A program made the position numbers and the translations under genes. A DNA stretch of 56,888 nt from positions 1 to 56,888 of the forward strand of contig NZ_OPYI01000014.1 of NCBI RefSeq assembly GCF_900343085.1. The letters are read 5' to 3'. Origin of the DNA: Aedoeadaptatus coli. GTDB lineage: Bacteria; Bacillota; Clostridia; Tissierellales; Peptoniphilaceae. Numbering within the stretch: the stretch's first letter is position 1; each line of letters starts with the position of its first letter. The notes under the pieces are model-generated. The model saw only the letters and a program-made list of their open reading frames with translations. It was not told where the DNA came from and did not search any database. Positions 3,251 to 54,847 of this stretch are shown here, one piece after another.

Positions 3251-4630
3251 TCAGCTTGCGGCGGAAAATTTTTTTATGAGGGATTTTAATTCGTCGAGGC
3301 CCTCTTTTAATTTATCCACGCTCATGTTGCCGTAGCCCACGATGAGGCGGGGATAGCCCTCCTGCCCTTGCCCTTGGGAGAAATCCGAGAGCCCCTTCAT
3401 GTGGATGCGGTGTTTCTTCAAATAGGCCAAGAGCTCCGCCTCGCTCCCATCCACCTTGCAGGTCAAAATAAAGTGCATCCCGGCCCGCTTGTCGTCCACG
3501 GAAAAGAGATCGTCGCCTAAAAAAGCCTCCGCGGCGATTTTTCTCCGCTCGTCGTAAATCTTCCGCTGGCGATTGAGCCGCCGCTCGAAGTGGCCCTCTC
3601 GCATGTACCGAGCCAGGGCCAGCTGCACGAGATTGGGGATGGGGCAGTTCATCACCGGGCTCAAGTGGCGGTAGCGGGCCATAAGGGGCCTCGGCAGCAC
3701 CATAAAGGAGATGCGCAAGGTGGGCGAGAGGGATTTTGAAAAGTTGGACATATAGATCACCCGGTCCACGCCATCCAGGCTCTTTAGGGCGGGAATGGGC
3801 CTGCCGTAGTACTTGTATTCGCTGTCGTAATCGTCTTCGATAATGTAGCTTCCCGTAGCCTTGACGTGGTTTAAAAGCTTGATGCGCCGGTCCACCCGCA
3901 GAATGCTCCCCGTGGGAAACTGATGGGAGGGCGTCACGAGATAAATGCTCTTTTCATCTGTGAGGGTGTCGGGATCCACGCCGGCCTCGTCCACGGCCAT
4001 GAAATCGTAGGGGACGCGGTTTTGCTCGAAAATCTTCTTCAGCCGGATGTAACCCGGGTTTTCCAGGCGAAAGGGCGCGTCTTTCGGCAAAAGCGCGATG
4101 AGGATCAAAAGCAGATACTCCATGCCCGCGCTTAAAAGAATGTCTTCCGCAGAAACGTCCACGCCACGGGAGGCCTTCAGGTAATCGGCCACGGCGGCCC
4201 TGAGCTCCGCGAGCCCTTCTTTTTCCCTGCGGTTTAAAGGCTCCTCCTGCTCCGCCGCCCACTGGAGGCATTTTTTGAAGTGATTGTCCGGAAAGCGGTA
4301 GTCGGCATTTTTGTTTAAGTCGAAATCGTAATCGTAGGCCGGCAACTCGCGCACGGGCGCCGCCGAAGCCGGGGCGATTTTTTTGTGGAGATTTTCGATG
4401 GCCGCCACGAAATAGCCCACCCGCTCCCTGGCGATGAGGTAGCCTTCGTCCACCAATTGATCGTAGGCGGCGGTGACCGTGTTCACGGACAGGCCCAAGT
4501 GGCGGGCCAAGTCCCGCTTCGATGGAAGCTTCTCCCCTTCCTTCATGGCGCCCGTGGCCACGGCGTCTTTTATGTGTTCGTACAGGGCCTCATAGAGCGG
4601 CTCGTCCCCGTTAAAGTGCATGGTAAACAA
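3251..4630 (-). CDS. pdxR: MocR/GntR-family regulator with aminotransferase-like domain (PdxR)
   Basis: A 459-residue fusion of a GntR winged-helix domain (about 1-75, [26 protein letters not shown]) and a fold-type I aminotransferase domain (about 110-455) with the PLP-lysine region [15 protein letters not shown]. PdxR-type MocR proteins bind PLP and control vitamin B6 synthesis, and this gene diverges directly from pdxS, which supports that role. The start is probably the TTG at 4630: GGAGGG lies 6 bases upstream, whereas the in-frame ATG three codons later is too far from it. Direct AATCTGG repeats at 4629-4635 and 4677-4683 bracket the intergenic region. Whether it activates or represses pdxS is not visible. 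Confidence 0.9.
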
Positions 4631-4663
4631 TCTGGTCCCTCCAAATTTTATTTATTTGATCCT

Positions 4664-4691
4664 TTTGATGGTACCAAATCTGGCCTACAAT
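4664..4691 (+). promoter_or_regulatory. Candidate pdxS promoter
   Basis: TTTGAT/TTGATG (4664-4670) and TACAAT (4686-4691) are spaced 15-16 bases. The second AATCTGG repeat lies between the boxes, where a bound PdxR could contact polymerase. Confidence 0.45.
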
Positions 4692-4729
4692 GTCACTGTA
4701 AAGATTACATAAATCACAAGGAGGAACAC

Positions 4730-5587
4730 ATGAACGAAGCATTTATCAAACTCACCGATTCCCTGAAAGGCGGCGTCATTATGGACGTCACCAGCCCCGA
4801 ACAAGCGAAGATCGCCGAAGAAGCCGGCGCCGTGGCCGTCATGGCATTGGAAAGAATTCCCGCCGACATTCGCGCCGCCGGCGGCGTGAGCCGCATGAGC
4901 GATCCCAAGATGATCAAAGAAATTCAAAAGACGGTAAAAATCCCCGTCATGGCCAAAGTGCGCATCGGCCACTTTGTGGAAGCATCCGTGCTCCAAGCCA
5001 TCGGCATCGACTACATCGACGAGTCGGAAGTCCTCACCCCGGCGGACACCACCTTCCACATCGAAAAGAAGAAATTCGACACGCCCTTCGTCTGCGGCGC
5101 GCGTAACTTATCCGAATCCCTTCGCCGCATCGAAGAAGGGGCGGCCATGATCCGCACCAAGGGCGAAGCCGGCACCGGCGACGTTTCCCAAGCCGTGGAT
5201 CACATGCGCTCCATTATGGGCGAAATCGCCTACGTGAAAAGCGCCAAATCCGACGAACTCTACGCCCTGGCCAAGGAAATGGGCGTGAGCTACGATCTTT
5301 TGGTTTACGTCCACGAAAACGGCAAGCTCCCCGTGGCCAACTTCTCCGCCGGCGGCGTCGCCACCCCCGCCGATGCCGCCCTTATGCGCCGCCTCGGTGC
5401 CGAAGGCGTCTTTGTGGGAAGCGGGATCTTTAAATCCGACAACCCCGAAAAACGCGCCAAGGCTATCGTGAGAGCCGTAGAAAACTACATGGACGACAGC
5501 GTCATCGCCGAAGTGAGCGAAGACATCGGCGAAGCCATGGTGGGCATCAATCCCGACGAAATCGAAACCATTATGGCGGAACGGTAA
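4730..5587 (+). CDS. pdxS: Pyridoxal 5'-phosphate synthase, synthase subunit
   Basis: Makes PLP from ribose 5-phosphate, glyceraldehyde 3-phosphate and ammonia, normally with ammonia from the PdxT glutaminase. The 285-residue product is near-canonical: [39 protein letters not shown] compressed at the N-terminus, the Schiff-base lysine in VMAKVRIGH, the second lysine region [10 protein letters not shown], and [15 protein letters not shown]. The ATG at 4730 follows AAGGAGG. No pdxT lies downstream: a terminator follows 30 bases after the stop. The enzyme must rely on an unlinked pdxT or on free ammonia. The gene diverges from pdxR. Confidence 0.96.
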
Positions 5588-5614
5588 GTTAAACAGTCTC
5601 TCTCTTCAGAACGC

Positions 5615-5655
5615 AAAAAGCGGATCTCCTTTCTCGGAAATCCGCTTTTCTTTGT
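5615..5655. terminator. Terminator after pdxS, usable on both strands
   Basis: Stem AAAAGCGGAT / ATCCGCTTTT followed by TTCTTTG; the minus-strand copy also ends in T5. It separates pdxS from the convergent activase gene. Confidence 0.82.
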
Positions 5656-5656
5656 T

Positions 5657-8600
5657 TTACCGCCCGGCGGCGATTTTTTTGTGTTTCTTCGCCAGGTCGT
5701 CGTTTATGAATTTATTTTTCTCCGCCTGAGACATCATAAGCTTGATGCGATTGGTTTGGTTCACCGCCGAGGCGGAGGCGTCGTAGTCGATGGGAATGAT
5801 GTTGGCCGTGGGATAGGCTTCCCGCACGGATTTAATCACGCCTTTGCCCGTAATGTGGTTGGGCAAACAGCCGAAGGGCTGCACGCAGACGATGTTGCCG
5901 GCGCCGGAGCGAATGAGTTCCACCATTTCCGCCGTGAGCAGCCAGCCTTCGCCGTATTGATTCCCGAGATCCACAAATTCTTCGGCATAGGCCATGAGGG
6001 TCTGTACGGTTTCGGGGCCGTCGTAGGCGGAATCCGCCAGGGCTTCGCGAATGGTGCGGCGGTAGCTTTCCACGTAGCGGATCATGATTTCCGCAAAGAA
6101 GCTGCCCATTTTCGACGTGCCGTAGCGATGTTCTTTGATCTTCGCATTTTTAAAGGAGTAGATCATAAAGTCCGTGAGGTCCGGCACCACCACTTCCGCG
6201 CCCTCTTCTTCTAATTGGCGCTGCACGTGATTGTTGGCCTCGGGCAGATACTTCACGAGGATTTCTCCGACGACGCCCACTTTCGGTCGCACTTCCTCCC
6301 GCCTTTCGACGGCGGAGTAATCGGCAATCATGGCGTCGATGTTTTTCTTAAATTCCGCCCGGGAGTAGCGGCGATTTTTCGCATTTAATTGATCGAGCCA
6401 CTTTTCCGTCACGGCCTTCGTGGCCCCGGCTTCCACTTCGTAGGGCCGGGTGGCGTTTGAAAGGCGCATGATCAGATCGCCGTAAAGCAGATTCTGCACG
6501 GCTTTTTTCCCGAGGCGTACCATCTGACTCTTGCTCAGTTGAAAGCCCGGGTGCCGTTCGATTCCCTGGAAGGAGGCGCCCAAGACAGGAATGTGGCCGT
6601 AGCCTGCATCCTTCAGGGCCTTTCTGATAAAGCCCACGTAGTTGCTGGCCCGGCAGGCGCCGCCGGTTTGGCTCATAAGCAGGGTTAAGTTGTCCGTGTC
6701 GTAGCGGCCGCTTTTTACCGCTTCCATAAATTGGCCCACGACAAAGATGGAGGGGTAGCAGGCGTCGTTGTTGACGTACTTGAGCCCTTCGTCTACCACG
6801 TGATTGGAAAGATCCGGCAGCACTTCCACATTGAAGCCCTCGCTCTTTAGCATGGGGGCGAGGAGGCTGAAGTGGATCGGCGCCATTTGCGGAATGAGGA
6901 TGGTGTGGGTCTTACGCATTTCTTCCGTAAAGAGCACGGGATCTTTGTACATGGACTCGGCTTCTTTATCCAAGGTGCGGTTTTGTACGGCTTGAATCAA
7001 AGAGCGCAGGCGAATTTTCGCCGCCCCCAGATTGTTTACCTCGTCGATTTTTAAGACGGTGTAGATTTTGTGGTAAGACTCCAGAATTTCGTTAACCTGA
7101 TCCGTGGTGACGGCGTCCAGGCCGCAGCCGAAGGAGTTCAGCTGCACCATTTCCAAGTGCTCGCTTTCCCCGACGATTTTCGCCGCCCGATACAGGCGGG
7201 AGTGGTAATTCCACTGGTCCAGGACGCGGAGCTTGCCGTCGATGTTTTCCTCATCCACAATGCTGTCTTCCGACAAGACGGGAAGGCCCAGGCCGGTGAT
7301 CATTTCCGCCATGCCGTGGTTGATCTCGGGATCCACGTGGTAGGGCCTGCCGGCGAGGACGATGCCCACGCTGTCCGTTTCCTCGAGAAAATCCATCGCC
7401 CGCTTGCCTGCGGCGCGCACGTCGGCGCGGTAGCGGTCTTCTTCGTCGTAGGCGGCGGCCACGGCTTCTTTCACGGCCTTTTTGTCGTGCTCGGGGAATA
7501 CTTCCGAAAGGCGCTCGGCGAGCTTTTCCCGATTGTCGAAGGAGAGGAAGGGATTCAGGTAGCGGATCCCGCTTTTCTCGATGCTCTCCACATTGTTTTT
7601 AATGACTTCGCTGTAGCCCGCTACCACCGGGCAGTTTAAGGTGTTGTCCGCCCGGGCCATTTTCTGTTCTTCGTAGAAGATGGCCGGATAGAAGATCCCG
7701 TCCACCTTTTTTTCCACGAGGTTTTCGATGTGGCCGTGGGTGATCTTCGCCGGATAACAGGCCGTCTCCGAGGTAATGGACTCCAGACCCTTTTCGTAGA
7801 GGTCTCTGGAAGACATGTCGGAGAGGACGACGCGGTAGCCCAGCTTCGTAAAGAAGGTGTGCCAGAACGGGTAGTTTTCGTACATGTTCAGCACCCGGGG
7901 AATGCCCACGGTGGGCGCGCCCTCGGGAAGGCTTTCGTAGTCGAAGACCCGCTTTAATTTATAGGCGTAGAGATTGGGCAGGGCTTCGTCTTCCCCCCGC
8001 ACGATGCCCGCGCCCCGCTCGCAGCGGTTGCCGGTAATGTAGCGGCTGCCGTCTTTAAAGATATTCACGGCGAGGGCGCAGTTGTTGGCGCATTGGCCGC
8101 AGCGGGCGTGTTTCGTGGTGTAGGTAAATTCGTCCAGTTCCTCCCGGGAGAGAAGGGTGCTCGCATCGCCGCCTTCTTCCATGGCGATGAGGGCCATGCC
8201 GATGGCGCCCATGGTGCCGCTCATTTTCGGGCGCACCACGTCTCTGCCCGTGATTTTTTCGAAGGCGCGGAGCACGGCGTCGCTGTAAAAGGTACCCCCC
8301 TGAACCACGATGTGCTCGCCCAATTTTTTCGGATCGCGAATTTTAATGACTTTTTGAATGGCGTTTCGAATGACGGAATAGGCGAGGCCCGCGGAAATAT
8401 CCGCCACGCTCGCCCCTTCTTTTTGGGCCTGCTTCACCTTGGAGTTCATAAACACGGTGCAGCGGCTCCCGAGATCCACCGGCGCGTCGCTTTTTAGGGC
8501 CACGGCGGCGAAATCCTGCACGCTTAAGTCCACGCCGCCGGCAAAGGTTTGAAGGAAGGAGCCGCAGCCCGAGGAGCAGGCTTCGTTTAAGAGAATGGAC

Positions 8601-9904
8601 TCGATGACATCGCCCTTCACCTTCATGGCCTTCATGTCCTGGCCGCCGATGTCTAAAATAAAGTCCACCTCGGGCTCAAAGTAGCGGGCGGCGCGGAAGT
8701 GGGCGATGGTTTCCACTTCCCCCCGATCCACCTTGAGAGCCGCCTTAATAAAGTCCTCGCCGTAGCCCGTGACGCCGGATGAGGCCACGTAGGCGTCGGC
8801 TGCCATGCGGTCGTAGAGATCCATGAGATAGACCTTCACCCGATCCAGGGGCGAGCCGTTGTTGGGGCCGTAGGCTTCGTACAAAACCTCGCCCTCATCG
8901 GAAAGGGCCACCATTTTCGTCGTGGTGCTCCCGGCGTCGATCCCCACGTAAAGGGGGCCGGCGTAGGAGGCCAGATCCCGCCTCGGCAAATCGCAGCCAG
9001 CGTGGCGGGCGCGGAATGCCGCAAGGGCCGCCTCGTCTTCAAAAAGAGGCTCCAGAAGGGCGTCGGCATCCACGTGGACGTCCTCTTCCTGTCCCAGCCG
9101 TTCGTAGAGATCTTTTACCTTCACGGGGGCGTGATCCACGCTCTTTAAGGCGGCGCCCAGAGCCACGAAGATCTGGCCGTTTTCCGGCGCCAAAATCTCG
9201 TCGTCTGCGAGATTCAGGGTTTCGATAAAGCGCTTTTTCAATTCGTCCAGGAACGTGAGGGGGCCGCCTAAAAAAGCGACCTTCCCCCGAATGGGACGGC
9301 CGCAGGCCAAATTGGAGATGGTTTGATTGACCACGGATTGAAAAACCGACACGGCGATGTCGGCTTTCGTCGCTCCCTGATTTAGAAGGGCCTGCACGTC
9401 GGTTTTGGCAAAGACCCCGCAGCGGGATGCGATGGGATAAATTTTCGTGTGTTCTTTGGCCAGTTCATTGAGGCCTGCGGCGTCGGTTTTCAGGAGGGAG
9501 GCCATTTGGTCGATAAAGGCCCCGGTGCCCCCGGCGCAAATGCTGTTCATGCGCTGTTCCAAACTGCCGCGCAGGTAGGTGATTTTCGAATCCTCCCCGC
9601 CCAGCTCGATGGCCACGTCCGTTTCGGGCAAATAGGCCTCGATGGCGGCGGTGCCGGCCACCACTTCCTGAATAAAGGGAACATTCAGAAATTCCGCCAC
9701 GGCGATTCCGCCGGAGCCGGTGACACTGATGGTGGTTTCGTCGTCGGGAAATTTATTTGAAACCGTCGTCAGAATATCGGCGACGGTTTTTTTCATATCG
9801 GAAAAATGTCGTTGATAAGTAGAATATAAGACCTCCGACTTATCGTTTAATGCCACAAGTTTTACCGTGGTGGAACCCACGTCCAAGCCCATGTGCAGCA
9901 ACAT
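5657..9904 (-). CDS. Giant 2-hydroxyacyl-CoA dehydratase activase-type protein (tandem BadF/BadG ATPases, DUF2229)
   Basis: A 1415-residue protein with two complete ASKHA ATPase domains. The first (about 1-265) has [23 protein letters not shown] and [15 protein letters not shown]; the second (about 315-590) has [28 protein letters not shown] and [10 protein letters not shown]. Each domain carries the glycine-flanked Cys and the SRC Cys that in HgdC-type activases hold a shared [4Fe-4S] cluster. A DUF2229-type domain follows ([20 protein letters not shown]), then a long region with scattered Cys ([26 protein letters not shown]) resembling HgdB/double-cubane proteins. Family knowledge suggests ATP-driven delivery of low-potential electrons; the acceptor is unknown. 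ATG at 9904 follows AGAAGG. No HgdA/B partners lie nearby, so the acceptor may be encoded within this chain or elsewhere. Confidence 0.88.
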   Translation of the reverse strand: [1415 protein letters not shown]

Positions 9905-9954
9905 TTCACTACCTTCTTTCTTATATATACTGTTCGCTTTTGCCGTTGGACTAG

Positions 9955-9963
9955 ATTATAACA
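9955..9963 (-). promoter_or_regulatory. Extended -10 promoter of the activase gene
   Basis: Minus-strand TGTTATAAT is an extended -10 element about 50 bases upstream of the start codon. No convincing -35 box is seen. Confidence 0.5.
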
Positions 9964-10032
9964 TCTTTTTTATGAAAAGGCAGTATTGTTTTGCTCTTAC
10001 TCCACATTATTTTTTCACGGACTTTGTCTGAA

Positions 10033-10779
10033 TCAGTCTTCCGATTTTCCGTCGCTTTTCCCCTTATTCAAGAAGTACACGGCAGCGATGGCGGCGGCTG
10101 AAATGGCGATTTTTATGAGCATGAGGAGAATGAATGGCTTGGACAGGGGATTTAAAATCACATCACCCAAGAGGGTGTTGGTCACCACGCCGATGCTGCA
10201 CCCGATCAGTGACGCCGTGAGGTAGGTGATGTAGGGCGTCTTGGAGGCGCCGAAGTAGAAGCTTAAAATGTCACAGGGAAACCAGCCGATGAGCCTGACG
10301 ATAAAATTGGCGAAAAACTCGTTTTTCTTTTGAAACTCAAGGACTTTTTCTATTTTCGGGTAATTGGCCGTAATGTAGTCGATTCCTTCGCCGCCGGCCC
10401 AGCGCCCGAGGATGTAGGGGATGGTCAGGGTAATGGCCAGCCCCACGTAGCTGATACACACCGCCTTTACGGGCTGAAAGAGAAGGCCGCTCGCCAAGTA
10501 CAGCGACGGCAGGGGAATGACCACGGAAAGGCTTTTAATGGCGAAAAGAAGCCACAAAAACCCCGCCGCCCGCGCGGAGTTTCCTTCCACGCCGGCGGTG
10601 AGGCTTTCGATGGTTACATGTTCTTTTACGCTGAGAAAAATGGCGATCAGGGCGATGGCGAATGAAATCACGGCGACGATTTGTACTTTTCTGAACTGCT
10701 CCTTCATAGCCGATGTGTCGGCCTCGTTATTGTCCGCTCCCTTTTGCGTCTTCTTTTCGAATTTCTTAAACAGTGCCAC
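10033..10779 (-). CDS. TVP38/TMEM64 (VTT-domain) membrane protein
   Basis: A 248-residue integral membrane protein with a charged 30-residue N-terminus and about six hydrophobic segments. The central block has the VTT/SNARE-associated hallmarks: PSLYLASGLLF, the re-entrant IGWFPCDILSFYFGAS and a following helix. DedA/VTT relatives are thought to scramble or recycle lipids such as undecaprenyl phosphate; the substrate here is unknown. The GTG at 10779 is preceded by AAGGAGG at a 7-base spacing, better than the longer in-frame extension, which would run into relP. It lies 14 bases downstream of relP and probably shares its transcript. Confidence 0.85.
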   Translation of the reverse strand: MALFKKFEKKTQKGADNNEADTSAMKEQFRKVQIVAVISFAIALIAIFLSVKEHVTIESLTAGVEGNSARAAGFLWLLFAIKSLSVVIPLPSLYLASGLLFQPVKAVCISYVGLAITLTIPYILGRWAGGEGIDYITANYPKIEKVLEFQKKNEFFANFIVRLIGWFPCDILSFYFGASKTPYITYLTASLIGCSIGVVTNTLLGDVILNPLSKPFILLMLIKIAISAAAIAAVYFLNKGKSDGKSED

Positions 10780-10793
10780 GCCCCGTCCTCCTT

Positions 10794-11492
10794 TTACAAA
10801 TCGCGATTTCCTTCCCACACCATACCGTACAAGCGCTCCATCCGCGCGTCCATGGCCGCTCCCATTTCCGCGCATTCATTGAGCTCTTTTTCGATAAAGT
10901 CCGAATCGGGCAAGTCTTTTTTGTAGCGAATCGTGTGTTCCAAACTGGCCCACCAGTCCATGGAAATGGTTCTGAGCTGCACCTCCACCTTCATGGTCTT
11001 TTTGTGGTCGTGGAGAAAAATGGGGATCTCCACGATTAAGTGGAGGCTCCGGTAGCCGTTGGCCTTCGGGTGTTTGATATAATCTTTTTTCTCGATCAGG
11101 CGCACGTCGTCTTGCTTTAATAGGGCGTCGGCCAAGGTGTAAATGTCCGAGGGGAAGGAACAGATCACCCGCACACCGGCGATGTCGTGGAGATTTTCCT
11201 CGATGCTCTCCACGGTGAGGGGACAGCCCTTGCGCACCATCTTCTCCCGAATGCTCTCCGGCGTCTTCAGCCGGGTGCGAATGGATTCGATGGGATTGCG
11301 GTCGTCGCGCATGGAGAGCTCCTCGCTCAAGACCTTAAATTTCATCTCCACTTCCATCATGGCGCAGCTGTAATAGCTCATGAGTTCCTTGTAGGGCTGA
11401 ATGGATTTTCGCACCATGGAGGAGATCTTTTGATTCTGGAGTTGTTCAAGAAAGTGTACGGTGAGTCGATTGTATAGGTATTCCGGTTCCAT
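10794..11492 (-). CDS. relP: Small alarmone synthetase, RelP/YwaC type
   Basis: Makes (p)ppGpp by pyrophosphate transfer from ATP to GDP/GTP. The 232-residue protein has only the synthetase domain: HDIAGVRVICSF, KDYIKHPKANGYRSLHLIVE (the G-loop with the guanine-stacking Tyr) and VEVQLRTISMDWWASLEH. No HD hydrolase, TGS or ACT domain is present. The order MRKGCPLT then HDIAGVRVICSF and HPKANGYRSLHL resembles Bacillus YwaC (RelP) more than YjbM (RelQ). Small synthetases of this kind often respond to cell-wall stress. ATG at 11492 follows a weak GGAGA site. It is clustered with two membrane proteins and a radical SAM enzyme on the same strand. Confidence 0.9.
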   Translation of the reverse strand: MEPEYLYNRLTVHFLEQLQNQKISSMVRKSIQPYKELMSYYSCAMMEVEMKFKVLSEELSMRDDRNPIESIRTRLKTPESIREKMVRKGCPLTVESIEENLHDIAGVRVICSFPSDIYTLADALLKQDDVRLIEKKDYIKHPKANGYRSLHLIVEIPIFLHDHKKTMKVEVQLRTISMDWWASLEHTIRYKKDLPDSDFIEKELNECAEMGAAMDARMERLYGMVWEGNRDL

Positions 11493-49657: not shown

Positions 49658-50040
49658 AAGCCCCCTCCTTTCTTACTGCGAAGATAGTCGAACATGTTTC
49701 TAAAGAGTATCACGTACTTGACGGATAATAGACCGAAAAACGTCCCCACAAGGCTCAAATACTCCGCCTTGGCCGCCACCACCAATGCCGCGGCGTACAG
49801 GGCGAAGCGAAACAGGTAGTGCATACCCGCGTAGCGCGACGCCTGCGCCTCGGTTTTGTCCACGGCGCGGAGCAAGGTAAGGTACATGAGCTTAAACATG
49901 GCCATGGCAATCAGCGAGCCGAAGATCCAGCCCAACACAGCGGGCTTCGGGTCTTTTAAGGCCATAAGAAGCACCCCCGAGACCACGAGCGTAAGCCCGG
50001 CGGTGAGGGCGATGTATTCGTTGGTGAAACGATCTTTCAT
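49654..50040 (-). CDS. atpI: ATP synthase subunit I-like protein
   Basis: A 128-residue membrane protein with four helices (IALTAGLTLVVSGVLLMAL, AVLGWIFGSLIAMAMFKLMYL) at the position of atpI, which helps c-ring assembly or Mg2+ supply. The ATG at 50040 overlaps the atpZ stop (ATGA); a longer ORF to 50163 would run through atpZ and is rejected. The sequence is weakly conserved, as usual for this subunit. Confidence 0.82.
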   Translation of the reverse strand: MKDRFTNEYIALTAGLTLVVSGVLLMALKDPKPAVLGWIFGSLIAMAMFKLMYLTLLRAVDKTEAQASRYAGMHYLFRFALYAAALVVAAKAEYLSLVGTFFGLLSVKYVILFRNMFDYLRSKKGGGF

Positions 50041-50237
50041 AGCTTCTTGCCCAAGCGAAGGATGTTCATGACGCCGGCGGCGATGCCCAGAAGGGTGAGA
50101 ATCAGAAGAAACAATCCGCTTCCGTCCGTTTTCTTGTCTAACCACGCACCGAGCAGCATGCACCCCAATATGGGCAGAAGGATATTCAGTCCCACCTGCG
50201 TAATTAAGGCCAAGCCGGTGTAAGGCGACTTTTTCAC
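50037..50237 (-). CDS. atpZ: AtpZ/AtpI-family small membrane protein
   Basis: A 66-residue two-helix protein (LALITQVGLNILLPILGCMLLGAWLDKK; LFLLILTLLGIAAGVMNILRLGKK) matching the AtpZ family, with the GAWLDKKTDGSG loop. AtpZ and AtpI form a Mg2+/Ca2+ channel that is thought to serve ATP synthase. The GTG at 50237 has GGGAGGTG eight bases upstream. It is the first gene of the operon, behind a strong promoter. Confidence 0.82.
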   Translation of the reverse strand: MKKSPYTGLALITQVGLNILLPILGCMLLGAWLDKKTDGSGLFLLILTLLGIAAGVMNILRLGKKL

Positions 50238-50268
50238 GGACACCACCTCCCTTTTCTGTCTATCCCCT

Positions 50269-50297
50269 ATTTTATCGGATCCCCATGTTCTATTCAA
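50269..50297 (-). promoter_or_regulatory. Promoter of the ATP synthase operon
   Basis: Minus-strand TTGAAT (50292-50297), a 17-base spacer and TAAAAT (50269-50274), ending about 32 bases before the atpZ start codon. Confidence 0.75.
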
Positions 50298-50331: not shown

Positions 50332-51570
50332 TTATCGAAAGACGGGATGGGGCAAAGTGATCACATCATTGGTACGAATGGGCATTTTCGTATCGTTCAG
50401 GAGCCCTAAAAAAGTTATGGCCTCTTCCCCGTAGCGCCGACGAATTGTATAAATGGCCCGGTCCAAATCCTCTTCTTTTTTCTTTTTTTCGTAATCTGAG
50501 AAAAAATCCGTCTGCACCGCCGCCTTGCTCGGCACGAGATTCGTGGCCCGAAGGGTCACGGCGCGAATGGGGCGAGCGGGATCCACCTTCTCCGTGTAAA
50601 GATCGAAGGCGCTGTCACGGAGCAAAAAAGAGGAGGCGCCGTCGGTGGGGAGCATGCGCTGAAAGGTCATGCTTCTTAAATCTTTATCCCGCAAATGAAT
50701 CTCGATGCCCCGGGCCATGAGCTCCCCTTCCCTGAGCCTGCGCGCCACGTTCAGGGCGAGAATCTGAAAGATCCGCCGCACCTCCACGGGGTTCTTTAAA
50801 TCTTCCCGAAGGGTGATGCCGTTGCCCACGCTTTTCACGGGCAGAAGGTCGTCTCGGTCCCGCACCGGATCTTCCTCCATGCCCCGAGCCTTTTTCCAAA
50901 GCTTTTCGCCGTTGATCCCGAGGCGGCTTTTCAAAAGAGATGGATCCGCCTGAGCCAAATCCCCCAAGGTGTGGATCCCCACGGCCCGCAGCTTTTCCTT
51001 CGTCTTGCTGCCGATGCCGATCATGGCGTCGGTGGGAAGGGGATAGACCTTCCTCGCCACGTCTTCCTCGGCGATGACCGTCACGGCATCGGGCTTTTTC
51101 ATGTCGCTTCCCAGCTTCGCGAAGGTCTTTGTAAAGCTCACGCCCACGGAAACCGTAATGCCCAGTTCTTCTTTCATGCGCCGGCGAATGGCGTGGGCCA
51201 TGGCCTCGCCTGTGCCGAAGAGATGCACACTCCCCGTCACATCCAGCCAACACTCGTCGAGACCGAAGGGCTCCACCTGATTGGTGTAGTCGTAGTAGAT
51301 GGCCCGGGCCCTTCTGGAAAAATCCAAATACACCTCGTAGTGGGGCGCCACCACGATAAGGTTCGGGCATTTATTTTTCGCCTGCCACAGGGCCTCACCG
51401 GTTTTGATCCCCATGGCCTTGGCCTCCACGGACTTGGCCAGGACGATGCCGTGGCGATCTTCCACAGAGCCCCCCACCACCAGGGCCTTGCCCCGGAGGG
51501 CCGGGTTTCTCTGAATTTCGATGGAGGCGTAGCAATTGTTCATATCCGAATGTAAAATAACCCGTTTCAC
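50332..51570 (-). CDS. dinB: DNA polymerase IV (Y-family)
   Basis: Error-prone translesion polymerase. The 412-residue protein has the palm metal ligands in HSDMNNCYASIE (Asp8) and PFGLDECWLDVTG, the finger DPFGLDE region, a thumb with two HhH-like segments (MIGIGSKTKEKLRAVGIHTLGDLA) and the little-finger domain (SVGNGITLREDLKN). The GTG at 51570 follows AAAGGATCGCC; longer versions up to 51732 would cover the operators. It diverges from an XRE-ImmA/IrrE pair with dyad sites between, suggesting that this pair controls it. Ends in DTKMPIRTNDVITLPHPVFR without a clear beta-clamp motif. Confidence 0.93.
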   Translation of the reverse strand: MKRVILHSDMNNCYASIEIQRNPALRGKALVVGGSVEDRHGIVLAKSVEAKAMGIKTGEALWQAKNKCPNLIVVAPHYEVYLDFSRRARAIYYDYTNQVEPFGLDECWLDVTGSVHLFGTGEAMAHAIRRRMKEELGITVSVGVSFTKTFAKLGSDMKKPDAVTVIAEEDVARKVYPLPTDAMIGIGSKTKEKLRAVGIHTLGDLAQADPSLLKSRLGINGEKLWKKARGMEEDPVRDRDDLLPVKSVGNGITLREDLKNPVEVRRIFQILALNVARRLREGELMARGIEIHLRDKDLRSMTFQRMLPTDGASSFLLRDSAFDLYTEKVDPARPIRAVTLRATNLVPSKAAVQTDFFSDYEKKKKEEDLDRAIYTIRRRYGEEAITFLGLLNDTKMPIRTNDVITLPHPVFR

Positions 51571-51591
51571 GGCGATCCTTTCTTGACAAAA

Positions 51592-51620
51592 GACGCAATT
51601 CATTTTATGATTTACGCAAC
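51592..51620. promoter_or_regulatory. Possible third operator next to dinB start
   Basis: Two ACGCAA units 21 bases apart (51593-51598 and 51614-51619), the first followed by TTCATTT and the second preceded by TGATTT. They resemble half-sites of the two clearer dyads at 51644 and 51686. Confidence 0.4.
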
Positions 51621-51643
51621 TCGATTTCCTATTTGTTTCCATG

Positions 51644-51664
51644 ATACGAAATTTGATTGCATAT
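51644..51664. promoter_or_regulatory. Operator-like dyad 1 between dinB and the XRE gene
   Basis: ATACGAAATTTGATTGCATAT, 21 bases, an imperfect inverted repeat sharing most positions with the site at 51686; quoted in two parts it is ATACGAAATT and TGATTGCATAT. Confidence 0.55.
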
Positions 51665-51685
51665 TTCAAGGCTGTTTTTCCATAG

Positions 51686-51706
51686 ACGCGCAATTTAATT
51701 GCGTAT
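51686..51706. promoter_or_regulatory. Operator-like dyad 2 between dinB and the XRE gene
   Basis: Contains CGCAATT-T-AATTGCG (51689-51703), a perfect 7-bp inverted repeat around one base. It lies 42 bases (four helical turns) from dyad 1, immediately upstream of the XRE start codon, a position suited to autorepression. Confidence 0.6.
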
Positions 51707-51725
51707 AAACCATTCGAGGTGACCC

Positions 51726-52139
51726 ATGACATTCGGAGAAAAAATAAAAAACCTGCGCAAGGAGCGGGGCATGACGCAAAAGGATTTGGCCGAGGCCCTG
51801 GGCCTTTCTTTGCGCACCATATCCAATTACGAAACCGGCGGCCTGCGCCCCCGCCACGACGCCACCTACGACGCCCTGGCCGCGCTCTTCCACGTGCCCA
51901 AAACCTATTTCTTTACGGAAGAAGACGCCTTTATCTCAGCGGCCGAGGCCCGCTGGGGAAAAAGCGGCGGTGCCGACGCCCGGGAATTGGTGGACGGGGG
52001 CATCGGGCTCTTTGCCGGCGGCCGCTTGGACGAGGAAGACAAGCAGGCGGTGTTTGAGGCCATACAGGAAGCCTATTTCCGCGCGAAGCTGGAGAACGAA
52101 TCGAAGAAGGCGGGCGATCCTTATGAACAAGACGAGTAA
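51726..52139 (+). CDS. XRE-family repressor of ImmR/DdrO type
   Basis: A 137-residue regulator. Residues 1-65 form a Cro/cI helix-turn-helix (MTQKDLAEALGLSLRTISNYETGGLRP). The C-terminal part holds GIGLFAGGRLDEEDKQAVFEAIQEAYFRAK, the segment typical of XRE proteins partnered with ImmA/IrrE proteases, where cleavage by the protease relieves repression. The ATG at 51726 follows GAGGTG. The stop overlaps the protease start by 17 bases, so they are co-translated. It diverges from dinB, and dyads in the spacer are its likely sites. Function in a damage response is inference from DdrO/IrrE and ImmR/ImmA systems. Confidence 0.88.
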   Translation: MTFGEKIKNLRKERGMTQKDLAEALGLSLRTISNYETGGLRPRHDATYDALAALFHVPKTYFFTEEDAFISAAEARWGKSGGADARELVDGGIGLFAGGRLDEEDKQAVFEAIQEAYFRAKLENESKKAGDPYEQDE

Positions 52140-52677
52140 TCGCTACCGCCACCTTTACGACGACGCCAATCGCCTGCGGGCCCGCTACGGCGCAGATCCC
52201 AAGGCGGTGCTGGAGGCCCTGGGCGTAGGCCTCGTGGCCATGGCCACCTCCACGAAGCTCCTCGGGATGTACAAAACGGTGTTGAACAAGCCCTTCGTCT
52301 TTTACAACGACCGCATGCCGGCGCCGATTCAGCGCATGGTCCTGGCCCACGAGCTGGGCCACCACCTCTACCACAGAAACCACGCCGAGGCCGATGCCCT
52401 CATCGAATACACCCTCTTCCATTTAACCGATGCCATGGAGCTTGAGGCCAATATTTTCTCCGCCCACTTCCTTTTGGAAGACGAGGCGGTTTACGCCATG
52501 GCGCGATCGGGCTACTCCTACATGGACATGGCCCGGGCCTTTTCCGTGGACGTGAACCTCATGATCTTTAAGCTCAACGAAATGCAGCGCATGGGCTACG
52601 ATCTGCCGCCCCTGGATCCGGCAGACAATCAGTTTTACAGAAAAATCGACGGACGCAAGCTTCCCGAGGATTTGTAA
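52123..52677 (+). CDS. ImmA/IrrE-family metallopeptidase
   Basis: A 184-residue zinc protease of the ImmA/IrrE (DUF955) family, with VLAHELGHHLYHR (HExxH) and the third ligand in ELEANIFSAHFLL. Relatives cut a partner XRE repressor after DNA damage. The ATG at 52123 lies inside the end of the XRE gene (17-base overlap); an in-frame extension upstream to 51970 is not real. No DNA-binding or sensor GAF domain follows, unlike Deinococcus IrrE, so sensing would rely on another trigger. Confidence 0.9.
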   Translation: MNKTSNRYRHLYDDANRLRARYGADPKAVLEALGVGLVAMATSTKLLGMYKTVLNKPFVFYNDRMPAPIQRMVLAHELGHHLYHRNHAEADALIEYTLFHLTDAMELEANIFSAHFLLEDEAVYAMARSGYSYMDMARAFSVDVNLMIFKLNEMQRMGYDLPPLDPADNQFYRKIDGRKLPEDL

Positions 52678-52741
52678 CGGGATTAACACCCACAGAAAAT
52701 CCCTTTTCCAGTACAATGGAAGAAAGAAAGAGGTGTTTCCT

Positions 52742-54847
52742 TTGAACGTATTTAAAAGGCAATTTGTATTTTTATGGGTCTTGGCCCTCGTGCTTCTCGT
52801 GCCCAAAGGCGCCGAGGCCGTCTCCCTAAAAGAAAACGGCCGCACCACCGTCTCCCCCGGCGTGGTGCGCCGCGAGCTTTCCGCAAAAATCGGCGGAAGA
52901 AACCACATCGTCGATGTGATCCAAGTGGATCTGAACAATCCCGGGGCGGATCTCGAGGTCATGGCCGGAGCGGGCAACTACACCCGCAAAGACACGGTGA
53001 GCCACATGGCCAATCGCACCGACGCCTACGCCGGCATTAACGGCGACTTCTTCAATATGTCCAAGCAAGGCGCCCCCTTCGGCCCCTCTGTCGTGGACGG
53101 CAAGCTTCAGTCCTCTCCCCTGGAATCCGTGGGCCTTTTCGCCTTCGGCATCGACAGCGGGAAAAACGCCTACATCGAAAGCTTTACCTTCAACGGCCGC
53201 GCCACCGCCCAAGACGGTGCCCACTACAAGATCAGCGGCCTGAACAAAACCGACTACATCATCAACCACACCCAAGTCCCCTCCCACAAAGACAGCATCC
53301 AATTGTACAACGACTTTTGGACCGCTCCCTCCCGCGGACTCAAAGGAAGCGGCGAAGTCTTGGTCGACGGCAATTTCGTCGTGGAACGGATTTCACTCGA
53401 CAAGCCTATTCCCATGGTCACCCCCAAGGGCAAATACATTTTGCAGGTCAACGGACGGGCCAAAGACTTTATTCGAAACCACGTGAAGCCCGGGCAAAAA
53501 CTGCGCCTGGACTACCGCGTGAGCCCGGACAGAAACTGGCGCTTTTTAATCGGCGGCCACGCCCTCTTGGTCAACGGCGGCAGGCCCCAGCCCTACATTA
53601 TGGACGCGGTAGCCATCGACGGCTACCGGGCCCGAAGCGCCGCGGCCATTTCCAAAGACCGCAAAACCGTCTACCTCGTGGCCACGGAAGGCCGCACGAA
53701 AAAAAGCCGCGGCATGAAGCTGGACGAATGGGCAGCCACCGTGGCCGCCCTGGGCGTGGAAAAAGCCATTAACTTAGACGGCGGCGGCTCCACCACCTTG
53801 GTGGCCCGAGGCCACGGCGATTTCAAAAACACGAAAATCACCCGTCCCGAGAAAAACGGCGCCGAGCGGCGCATCGTCAACGGCATCGGCGTCATGAACA
53901 ACGCACCCAGAACCGCCCTGGCAGGCGGCGAAATCGCAGGCCCCCGCCACGTCGTGTTGGGCGAAGTGGCCACCTACAAGCTGAACAAGGCCTGGGACAG
54001 CAACTACCATCCCATTAAAGCCGAAAACGTGGGCTACAGCTTAACGGACAGCACCTTCGGCAAAGACGCCTGGATCTACAGCCGCTTCCTCTCGCCGAAG
54101 GTGGGCAAGACCAACATCGTCCTGACCACCTCAGGCGGCGTCACCATCACCCTGCCCGTGGACATTCAAAGCCCCGCCGCATTAAAAAGCTTCACCCTCG
54201 CTGCAAAAGAGAGCGGCAACACCATTAGCCTGGCCCCGAAAGGCGTCACCAAAGCCGGCAGAAGCATCGCCATCGACCCGGCCCAAATCGCCTGGACCGT
54301 AGAAAACGGCGCGGCGAAATCGGACACAAGCAGCTGGAAAGCTCCCGGCGCCGGCGTGAAAGAGCCCGCCGCCATCTTCCGCCAAGAAAAAGCACAAGGC
54401 GCCTACGTGGCCTACAAGGCAAACTTCGGCGGACACGAGGCCAGCTATGTGAAGGAATCGCCGGGCTATGCGAAAGTGCGCATGACCGTGGGCAAGAAAA
54501 ACTTTACCTTCGCCGGCGAAAACCGCACCATGGACACGACGCCGGTGATTCGAAACAACCGCACCCTCGTGCCCCTGCGCTTCTTAATGGAAGCCTACGG
54601 CGCCGAAGTCACCTGGGACAATGAGAGCCGCACGGCCATGGTAAACTACAAGGGCCACACCATTGCCCTTCCCGCGAACAAAAACGAAGCCACAATCGAC
54701 GGCAACACCGTCGCCCTCGATGTGGGCGCCACGATCCAAAACAACCGCACCATGGTGCCCCTGCGCTTTATCGTGGAAAATATGGGCATGGAAGTGTACT
54801 ACGAAAATTCCGATCGCTCCATCTCCATCTTCCAAAAAATCAATTAA
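52742..54847 (+). CDS. Secreted phosphodiester glycosidase (NAGPA domain) with copper-amine-oxidase-like repeats
   Basis: A 701-residue exported protein. Signal peptide at 1-27 (FVFLWVLALVLLVPKGAEA); then a NAGPA/phosphodiester glycosidase domain (about 40-390) with YAGINGDFFNMS, AAAISKDRKTVYLVATEG and INLDGGGSTTLVARG, and an Ig-like region around 400-580. Residues about 590-701 are two copper-amine-oxidase N1-like units (VIRNNRTLVPLRFLMEAYGAEV; IQNNRTMVPLRFIVENMGMEV), common on clostridial surface proteins. The family removes GlcNAc-1-phosphate caps in eukaryotes; in bacteria the targets are thought to be wall or exopolysaccharide phosphodiesters. The TTG at 52742 is preferred: AAAGAGG is 8 bases upstream. 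GTG 52733 overlaps that site. Confidence 0.88.
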   Translation: MNVFKRQFVFLWVLALVLLVPKGAEAVSLKENGRTTVSPGVVRRELSAKIGGRNHIVDVIQVDLNNPGADLEVMAGAGNYTRKDTVSHMANRTDAYAGINGDFFNMSKQGAPFGPSVVDGKLQSSPLESVGLFAFGIDSGKNAYIESFTFNGRATAQDGAHYKISGLNKTDYIINHTQVPSHKDSIQLYNDFWTAPSRGLKGSGEVLVDGNFVVERISLDKPIPMVTPKGKYILQVNGRAKDFIRNHVKPGQKLRLDYRVSPDRNWRFLIGGHALLVNGGRPQPYIMDAVAIDGYRARSAAAISKDRKTVYLVATEGRTKKSRGMKLDEWAATVAALGVEKAINLDGGGSTTLVARGHGDFKNTKITRPEKNGAERRIVNGIGVMNNAPRTALAGGEIAGPRHVVLGEVATYKLNKAWDSNYHPIKAENVGYSLTDSTFGKDAWIYSRFLSPKVGKTNIVLTTSGGVTITLPVDIQSPAALKSFTLAAKESGNTISLAPKGVTKAGRSIAIDPAQIAWTVENGAAKSDTSSWKAPGAGVKEPAAIFRQEKAQGAYVAYKANFGGHEASYVKESPGYAKVRMTVGKKNFTFAGENRTMDTTPVIRNNRTLVPLRFLMEAYGAEVTWDNESRTAMVNYKGHTIALPANKNEATIDGNTVALDVGATIQNNRTMVPLRFIVENMGMEVYYENSDRSISIFQKIN

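Follow-up and report, generated by a model that had tools for sequence, protein, structure and literature searches.

Gene organization of the locus

The DNA analyzed here (the window) is a stretch of 56,888 nucleotides, contig NZ_OPYI01000014.1 of the 1.99-Mb genome of Aedoeadaptatus coli. Three genes are packed into 2.3 kb of it: a Y-family translesion polymerase gene (dinB-like, termed dinB in the following) on the minus strand and, on the plus strand, xre and immA, which encode an XRE-family repressor and an ImmA/IrrE-type metallopeptidase. A spacer of 155 bases separates dinB and xre. Coordinates and Pfam assignments agreed with the first-pass annotation of the window, according to which xre overlaps immA by 17 bases and diverges from the polymerase gene. 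All features are compiled in Table 1. Throughout, "genus" denotes Aedoeadaptatus/Peptoniphilus, of which eight genomes were compared.

Table 1. Genes, predicted promoters and candidate operators at the dinB-xre-immA locus (positions refer to the window; operator scores refer to the consensus given in the text)
Feature	Position	Strand	Description
dinB	50332..51570	-	Y-family translesion polymerase gene (dinB-like); GTG start at 51570, good ribosome-binding site
P_xre	51583..51611	+	TTGACA (51583-51588), 17 bp, TATGAT (51606-51611); predicted start ~51618; kept in genus alignment
O1	51592..51610		Candidate operator over P_xre spacer and -10; 12/18, centre 51601
O2	51613..51631		Candidate operator between both -10 elements, over P_xre start; 14/18, centre 51622
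P_dinB	51641..51669	-	TTGAAA (51669-51664), 17 bp, TATCAT (51646-51641); predicted start ~51634
O3	51645..51663		Candidate operator inside P_dinB spacer; 15/18, centre 51654; coincides with the mean dyad peak of 17 spacers
O4	51687..51705		Candidate operator in xre leader; 16/18, centre 51696; perfect CGCAATTTAATTGCG core, unique in genome
xre	51726..52139	+	XRE-family repressor gene; 137 amino acids, N-terminal helix-turn-helix (HTH); Pfam HTH_3 E 5.2e-12
immA	52123..52677	+	ImmA/IrrE-type metallopeptidase gene; 184 amino acids; Pfam Peptidase_M78 E 3.5e-18
atpI-like	50037..50297	-	Gene of ATP synthase cluster, left edge of module; Pfam ATPase_gene1
NAGPA	52733..54847	+	Phosphodiester glycosidase gene (Pfam), right edge of module; junction without module in genome G003

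The polymerase matched Pfam IMS (E 4.6e-42) as well as IMS_C, and its catalytic residues Asp9, Asp105 and Glu106 were conserved in an alignment of 24 polymerases. It had been labeled DNA polymerase IV, a name also carried by its top PDB matches in phmmer. Clamp-binding-like and RecA-NT-like motifs were recognized by eye at the C terminus; judged from the C-terminal motif, the protein may resemble the Pol V/YqjW type more than Pol IV. The HTH_3 and Peptidase_M78 matches of the other two proteins both exceeded the curated Pfam cut-offs, which identifies the genes as an XRE-COG2856 (ImmR/ImmA-like) pair. In fold searches, the predicted HTH fold of XRE matched CapH, ImmR and DdrO among many HTH proteins. 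The C-terminal segment GLFAGGxLxEEDKxAVxxAIQEAY was conserved in alignments. The zinc site of ImmA, HELGH, comprises residues 76-80, and His76, Glu77, His80 and Glu106 were invariant among 14 and 22 aligned sequences. ImmA contains no cysteine, and the fold predicted for it resembles those of CapP and IrrE. Peptidase_M78 was the only domain found by a Pfam scan, in which no sensor domain appeared.

Facing promoters and operator-like sites in the spacer

Two near-consensus promoters that were absent from the first-pass annotation, P_xre and P_dinB, face each other in the spacer, with predicted starts 16 bp apart. Four dyads scored as candidate operators against the consensus TACGCAATTNAATTGCGTA (18 positions) lie at successive distances of 21, 32 and 42 bp, i.e. 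about 2, 3 and 4 helical turns. Each of the two promoters is overlapped by a dyad, and the dyads over P_xre are conserved in the genus. At the six other genus loci the positions were kept and the sites were spaced 21, 31-32 and 41-42 bp apart; O1 fell below the cut at one of them (L095), and four of the six carried weak extra matches to the consensus (10-11/18). The two dyads described previously (51644-51664 and 51686-51706) were thus correctly placed, and their number has to be raised to four. The ACGCAA half-sites reported near the dinB start are present as well; each forms the left half of a further, less perfect copy of the 19-bp site.

The operator-like site is nearly specific for this locus. 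This spacer contains the genome's sole perfect copy of the 15-mer CGCAATTTAATTGCG. Allowing up to three mismatches to the 17-mer yielded seven places in the genome, two of which lie in this spacer 42 bp apart; a reversed control yielded two. Across the eight genus genomes, all six places with zero or one mismatch were at this locus, as were three of the six with two mismatches; the other three overlap open reading frames. A wider regulon was considered and largely rejected: four of the five other three-mismatch places are inside long open reading frames and one is between two. The latter (L085 1899-1915; G000:C21:40398-40414) is located upstream of an mraZ-like open reading frame, so named by eye, and may be a further site or due to chance; similar strings are also present in G004 and G006. 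De novo dyad searching with a generic program performed poorly when applied to one spacer at a time. The score of this spacer was reached by one of 40 shuffles, and a level of at most 1/40 was attained in just seven of 22 spacers, up to 27/40 shuffles reaching the score in others.

Conservation within the genus

ImmA was found in seven of the eight genus genomes, and at all seven loci having the genes the polymerase diverges from xre-immA. The gene order is thus not unique to this strain. Each of these seven genomes contains two IMS-domain genes, and the eighth, G003, contains one. In G003 there was neither an ImmA match nor a dinB of this type at E 1e-60. Its atpI and NAGPA genes are adjacent, with ~0.5 kb between the matches, and the 5-kb locus contained no xre, immA or dinB match. 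The three genes are accordingly present or absent as a block at the atpI/NAGPA junction. An immunity locus of a prophage or of an integrative and conjugative element was rejected on the grounds of the conserved chromosomal flanks (the ATP synthase cluster and NAGPA), the absence of any recognized mobility gene (integrase, relaxase) among the flanking genes read and the lack of a near DNA match to the locus in a plasmid collection.

Layouts beyond the genus

A contig scan returned 171 ImmA relatives. Analysis was restricted to the 80 most similar ones, which makes the sample biased, and six of the 80 loci are the genus genomes again. The xre gene was located upstream of immA in 80/80 (one cut by a contig end). 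A Y-family polymerase gene was present within 650 bp of the pair in 51 loci, in three main layouts: dinB divergent (36), umuC-like downstream in the same direction (11) and umuC-like divergent (3), with dinB upstream in the same direction in a single case. In a tree of 81 rows the layouts were clustered (12 changes versus a shuffled mean of 36), so many loci are not independent. The starred branches of this tree force at least five changes for the divergent-dinB state and at least three for the downstream-umuC state.

Starting from the polymerase, dinB was found at E 1e-60 or better in 64 of 130 family genomes. There were 65 dinB places, and 62 loci were fetched; the remaining three (G009 twice, G012) also have xre-immA divergent. 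Among the 62, xre-immA was divergent from dinB in 43, a divergent XRE gene stood alone in two, and neither was seen in 17.

Near-consensus promoters facing each other, one per strand, were present in 35 of 39 divergent spacers, seven of which are from this genus; the criterion was fixed after the spacers had been viewed. The -10 centres were 27-36 bp apart (54 in L115), and 0-12 of 300 shuffles per spacer satisfied the same criterion. The letters of the dyads, compared by eye, vary by genus: ACGCAATTNAATTGCGT in Aedoeadaptatus/Peptoniphilus, AAGAC-N7-GTCTT in Anaerococcus, GTG...CAC in Helcococcus and Andreesenia, and GAAG...CTTC in Kallipyga and Murdochiella. Operator letters thus differ between genera while the facing promoters persist. 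Over 17 chosen spacers, three of them from the genus, the mean dyad signal peaked 10.5 bp upstream of the P_dinB -10 element (z 5.8; numerous positions were tested).

In one genus (G021, G082, G083), xre-immA and dinB are far apart, and their promoters share TCTTNGTCATTCAAGTA. This pattern was written from these very promoters, so that the perfect dinB match arises by construction. In G083, the sole two perfect places in the genome are the dinB and xre promoters; in G021, the same two promoters are the best two places (zero and one mismatch; the next have two). Totals at up to three mismatches do not in general exceed the reversed control. When shared stretches between xre and the unlinked dinB were tested against shuffles, none of 60 reached the observed value in either G021 or G083.

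Some loci deserve mention in their own right. In Helcococcus massiliensis (L042/L115), two tandem dinB-type genes diverge from a single xre-immA pair. L107, from a Tissierellia metagenome-assembled genome (G081 is probably the same genome), has dinB, xre and immA codirectional, followed by a second xre-like open reading frame. The dinB copy beside xre-immA has an internal stop codon in two genomes (L207 in G056, L239 in G054). A. coli itself has a second pair, L046 (G000:C26:16000-26500; xre 4439-4810, immA 4861-5349), which adjoins a serine recombinase gene (Pfam) and a second recombinase-like open reading frame. Thirteen near-identical relatives of the L046 pair were found (L153, L154, L158, L160, L161, L163-L170), and such pairs occur in Anaerococcus, Peptoniphilus, Ezakiella, Neofamilia, Erysipelotrichaceae and Streptococcus; because of this distribution the L046 pair is probably a recently spread mobile element. 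In Ezakiella coagulans (L131), xre (5614-5976) and immA (5995-6507) are directly followed on the same strand by Cas3 and Cse1 genes (6614-11141; Pfam), possibly forming a CRISPR-Cas operon that is governed by a similar switch. Six gut phage records (PV036429, PV036448 and four others; two are named for Evtepia) encode ImmA relatives of 39.6-42% identity, which are closer to A. coli ImmA than many bacterial copies.

Absence of promoter LexA boxes at dinB genes linked to xre-immA

In many bacteria, LexA is the repressor that holds error-prone polymerases off until damage occurs. The A. coli genome has one lexA gene, lexA is present in all eight genus genomes, and boxes of the Bacillus subtilis type precede it in every one of them. 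A LexA matrix was built mainly on these sites, the best site at each lexA scoring 13.0-19.0 bits. With this matrix no LexA box was detected in the seven genus dinB-xre spacers (scores of at most 1.6 bits), and no site anywhere in the window exceeded 10.4 bits, the maximum observed there. The recA upstream regions of the eight genomes (L171-L178) contained a site above 10 bits in just two cases. As these regions are mostly without a clear box, the model rests on the lexA sites; recA may be outside the LexA regulon, or its promoter may be further upstream. In L001 (1270-1500) and its seven genus counterparts, lexA diverges from a short gene, LysM-like in L001, with several LexA boxes in between; by eye the gene is yneA-like, and it is a possible SOS division inhibitor.

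The comparison was extended to the 62 family dinB loci by searching 220 bp upstream of dinB for GAAC-N4-GTTC with at most one mismatch. Where xre-immA was not adjacent, 11 of 19 loci had a match, compared with 0.96 expected from shuffling; where it was adjacent, one of 43 had a match, compared with 3.25 expected. Boxes in the promoter position (-30 to -61) were present at 8/19 loci, representing eight genera, versus 0/43. The split into eight promoter sites and three others was made after the positions had been seen; the three others comprise two intragenic sites, both at +7, and one site at -89 next to a solitary XRE gene. Fisher p values for the contrast were 1.3e-7 by locus and 3.5e-4 by genus, both of which overstate independence. 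Seven of the eight genomes with a promoter LexA box had no ImmA match at E 1e-10. Ten of the other 11 genomes had one, just downstream of dinB in G081 and elsewhere in nine, where some may be paralogues with other targets.

Thus, LexA does not appear to control this polymerase. The proposed independence of LexA is supported insofar as no LexA box was found at dinB despite LexA in the genome. It is not to be read as independence of RecA, because ICEBs1 requires RecA for its induction by DNA damage (PMC10233336).

Proposed switch and alternative explanations

We consider it probable that a dedicated chromosomal XRE repressor, cut by the ImmA protease, controls one translesion polymerase in place of LexA. 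In undamaged cells, an XRE dimer on O1-O4 would shut both facing promoters: O3 would block P_dinB, while O1 and O2 would block P_xre, a negative autoregulation by which immA would be kept low. Upon stalled replication, ImmA would be activated by a damage signal, for which single-stranded DNA or a RecA filament is the likeliest candidate. Single-stranded DNA stimulates the cleavage of DdrO by PprI/IrrE and that of CapH by CapP (PMC10904395). ImmA would then cut XRE in the C-terminal segment, the operators would become empty, and dinB would be transcribed. Because xre-immA would be derepressed as well, repression should be back once the signal ends. Switch-like output is expected, since the promoters face each other with starts 16 bp apart and two polymerases should not both open.

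A damage-mutagenesis switch had been suggested for this locus in the first-pass annotation. The conserved gene order, the lack of a LexA box in the searches, the near-specificity of the operator-like site and the fact that no family dinB locus combined a promoter LexA box with adjacent xre-immA speak for it; the promoters, the conservation and the site shared by unlinked genes were likewise computed. Binding, cleavage, induction by a damage signal and switch-like output are what we infer. More tentatively, the system may be a bistable one-target switch of Peptoniphilaceae and neighboring Clostridia, in which the operator letters were rebuilt in each genus and the facing promoters kept; part of a damaged population would become mutagenic, at a threshold separate from that of SOS.

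Several observations weigh against control by XRE and ImmA in place of LexA. The eight dinB genes with promoter LexA boxes form just two clades in a poorly resolved N-terminal dinB tree (62 rows, 110 columns). One (L235-L238) sits on a long branch outside all others, with 35-39% identity to A. coli dinB, and may be another dinB subfamily. The other (L218, L220, L226, L227; 44-50% identity) is nested among the xre-linked dinB genes, which is consistent with a swap of regulator in either direction. With four of the eight in the distant subfamily, the contrast within the gene type proper is 4/15 versus 0/43, and it represents one clade of four genera, perhaps one event. Genome G103 has a LexA-box dinB plus an ImmA gene elsewhere, and G023 has neither. 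Four of the 39 divergent spacers (L134, L137, L139, L140) failed the facing-promoter criterion. In G082, dinB matched TCTTNGTCATTCAAGTA perfectly, the xre copy had two mismatches and was tied with two other places, and the best shared stretch was a different one (1/60 shuffles); the same test gave no significant result for G063, G088 and G080 (4, 13 and 17 of 60 shuffles). The C-terminal half of XRE, where ImmA is proposed to cut, was barely covered by fold searches. Finally, no Y-family polymerase was near in 29 of the 80 ImmA-relative loci (13 near-identical copies of the pair represented in A. coli by L046, four in which the contig ends less than 250 bp from the pair, and 12 other settings), from which it follows that the pair also serves other targets.

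A different trigger is conceivable. XRE cut by ImmA would still repress dinB, the signal being zinc or redox stress, a peptide or something else, and the polymerase would take part in a general stress-mutagenesis response. Such a trigger would fit the lack of a Pfam sensor domain in A. coli ImmA, the proposal that Deinococcus IrrE also responds to zinc and redox signals (PMC8072749) and the finding that ICEBs1 ImmA also answers to cell-cell signaling (PMC10233336). We nevertheless regard it as unlikely: the related pairs DdrO/PprI, CapH/CapP and ImmR/ImmA answer to DNA damage, and the promoter LexA boxes of four relatives in the same dinB clade, together with those of four in the distant one, indicate that damage control is an alternative state of this dinB gene.

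It is very unlikely that xre-immA is a selfish or addiction module, or the relic of a mobile element, that lies beside dinB and controls only itself. In its favor are the L046 paralogue beside serine recombinases, with its 13 near-identical relatives in other genomes, and the discussion of COG2856-Xre pairs as toxin-antitoxin-like (PMC2701414). The pair at dinB, however, is flanked by ATP synthase and NAGPA genes with no integrase or relaxase recognized; a conserved dyad lies inside P_dinB; the association with Y-family polymerases recurs in several layouts; a site is shared with unlinked dinB in one genus; and no dinB locus examined combined a promoter LexA box with adjacent xre-immA. In the case of TnSmu1, a toxin-antitoxin role of the pair was not borne out by the data (PMC10233336). 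The clustering of layouts by relatedness and the restriction of the LexA contrast to two clades would also be compatible with a dinB that is constitutive or set by its neighborhood, its proximity to xre-immA being inherited by descent within related genera and the dyads regulating only xre-immA. The repeated changes forced by the tree for the divergent-dinB and downstream-umuC states argue against this explanation, as does a near-consensus P_dinB with a dyad signal at one place across genera with different operator letters, and we take it to be very unlikely as well.

Relation to known systems and significance

The control proposed for A. coli dinB by XRE and ImmA is close in kind to ImmR/ImmA of ICEBs1 (Bacillus subtilis) and TnSmu1 (Streptococcus mutans). 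The xre-immA pair and the HEXXH protease are common to both, and the HTH domain of A. coli XRE is like that of ImmR (7t8i) in sequence and fold. Whereas ImmR/ImmA controls a mobile element, the likely target of the A. coli pair is one chromosomal polymerase, with facing promoters. Derepression by cleavage is established for ICEBs1 and proposed for TnSmu1, which has an ImmR/ImmA-like pair and is activated by mitomycin C (PMC10233336).

DdrO/IrrE (PprI) of Deinococcus controls a multi-gene repair regulon, in contrast to the single polymerase of the A. coli switch. The "DinB family protein" of the IrrE regulon, which we take to be of the YfiT type and not a polymerase, is no precedent for that reason. 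The A. coli protease is not IrrE proper: its 184 residues end at IrrE residue 212 in the model alignment, before the C-terminal GAF-like domain, which IrrE-like proteins generally lack (PMC8072749). In Deinococcus, LexA/RecA governs an error-prone cassette, and IrrE/DdrO governs the repair regulon (PMC8072749); this wiring, with the polymerase cassette under LexA, is the reverse of that proposed for A. coli.

CapH/CapP drive an operon of the cyclic-oligonucleotide-based anti-phage signaling system (CBASS), whereas the A. coli pair adjoins a translesion polymerase gene. Assignment to CBASS was rejected: no CBASS genes were adjacent, and the PADLOC matches to capH and capP were weak (35.6 and 33.1 bits). 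CapP uses a cysteine switch, a mechanism excluded here because A. coli ImmA has no cysteine. The LexA-controlled Y-polymerases YqjW and UvrX of Gram-positive bacteria are damage-inducible, as is predicted for A. coli dinB, and relatives of A. coli dinB carry LexA boxes; they differ in repressor, operator and protease, and no LexA box was found at A. coli dinB.

As for the promoter layout, pR and pL of phage 186 are facing promoters of divergent genes. So are those of scbA-scbR in Streptomyces. The proteins are unrelated to those of A. coli, where a protease is proposed to clear the repressor. According to a model of scbA-scbR, facing promoters with a short overlap give rise to strong interference, bistability and switch-like output (PMC3134472). 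A full-text literature search gave no report of XRE-ImmA control of a Y-family polymerase among the matches listed. Excerpts of two Y-family surveys (PMC6511836, PMC12926913) contained neither XRE nor IrrE, a single string match to "irre" in the latter being part of an unrelated word; ImmA, searched for in the latter only, did not appear there. A repressor-protease switch is thus known in kind; for the dedicated polymerase target and the promoter layout, the literature searched offered no counterpart.

These results bear on how mutagenesis is controlled in this family. Mutagenesis after DNA damage is commonly regarded as one arm of the LexA-controlled SOS response. One lineage of human-associated anaerobes appears to have a repressor and a protease of its own for a translesion polymerase, with LexA still in the genome. 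If this is true, mutagenesis and repair could be set at different damage thresholds, and searches for LexA boxes would miss the mutagenic part of the response. The module known from mobile elements, Deinococcus and CBASS would then become a simple three-gene system for proteolysis triggered by single-stranded DNA and for promoter collision.

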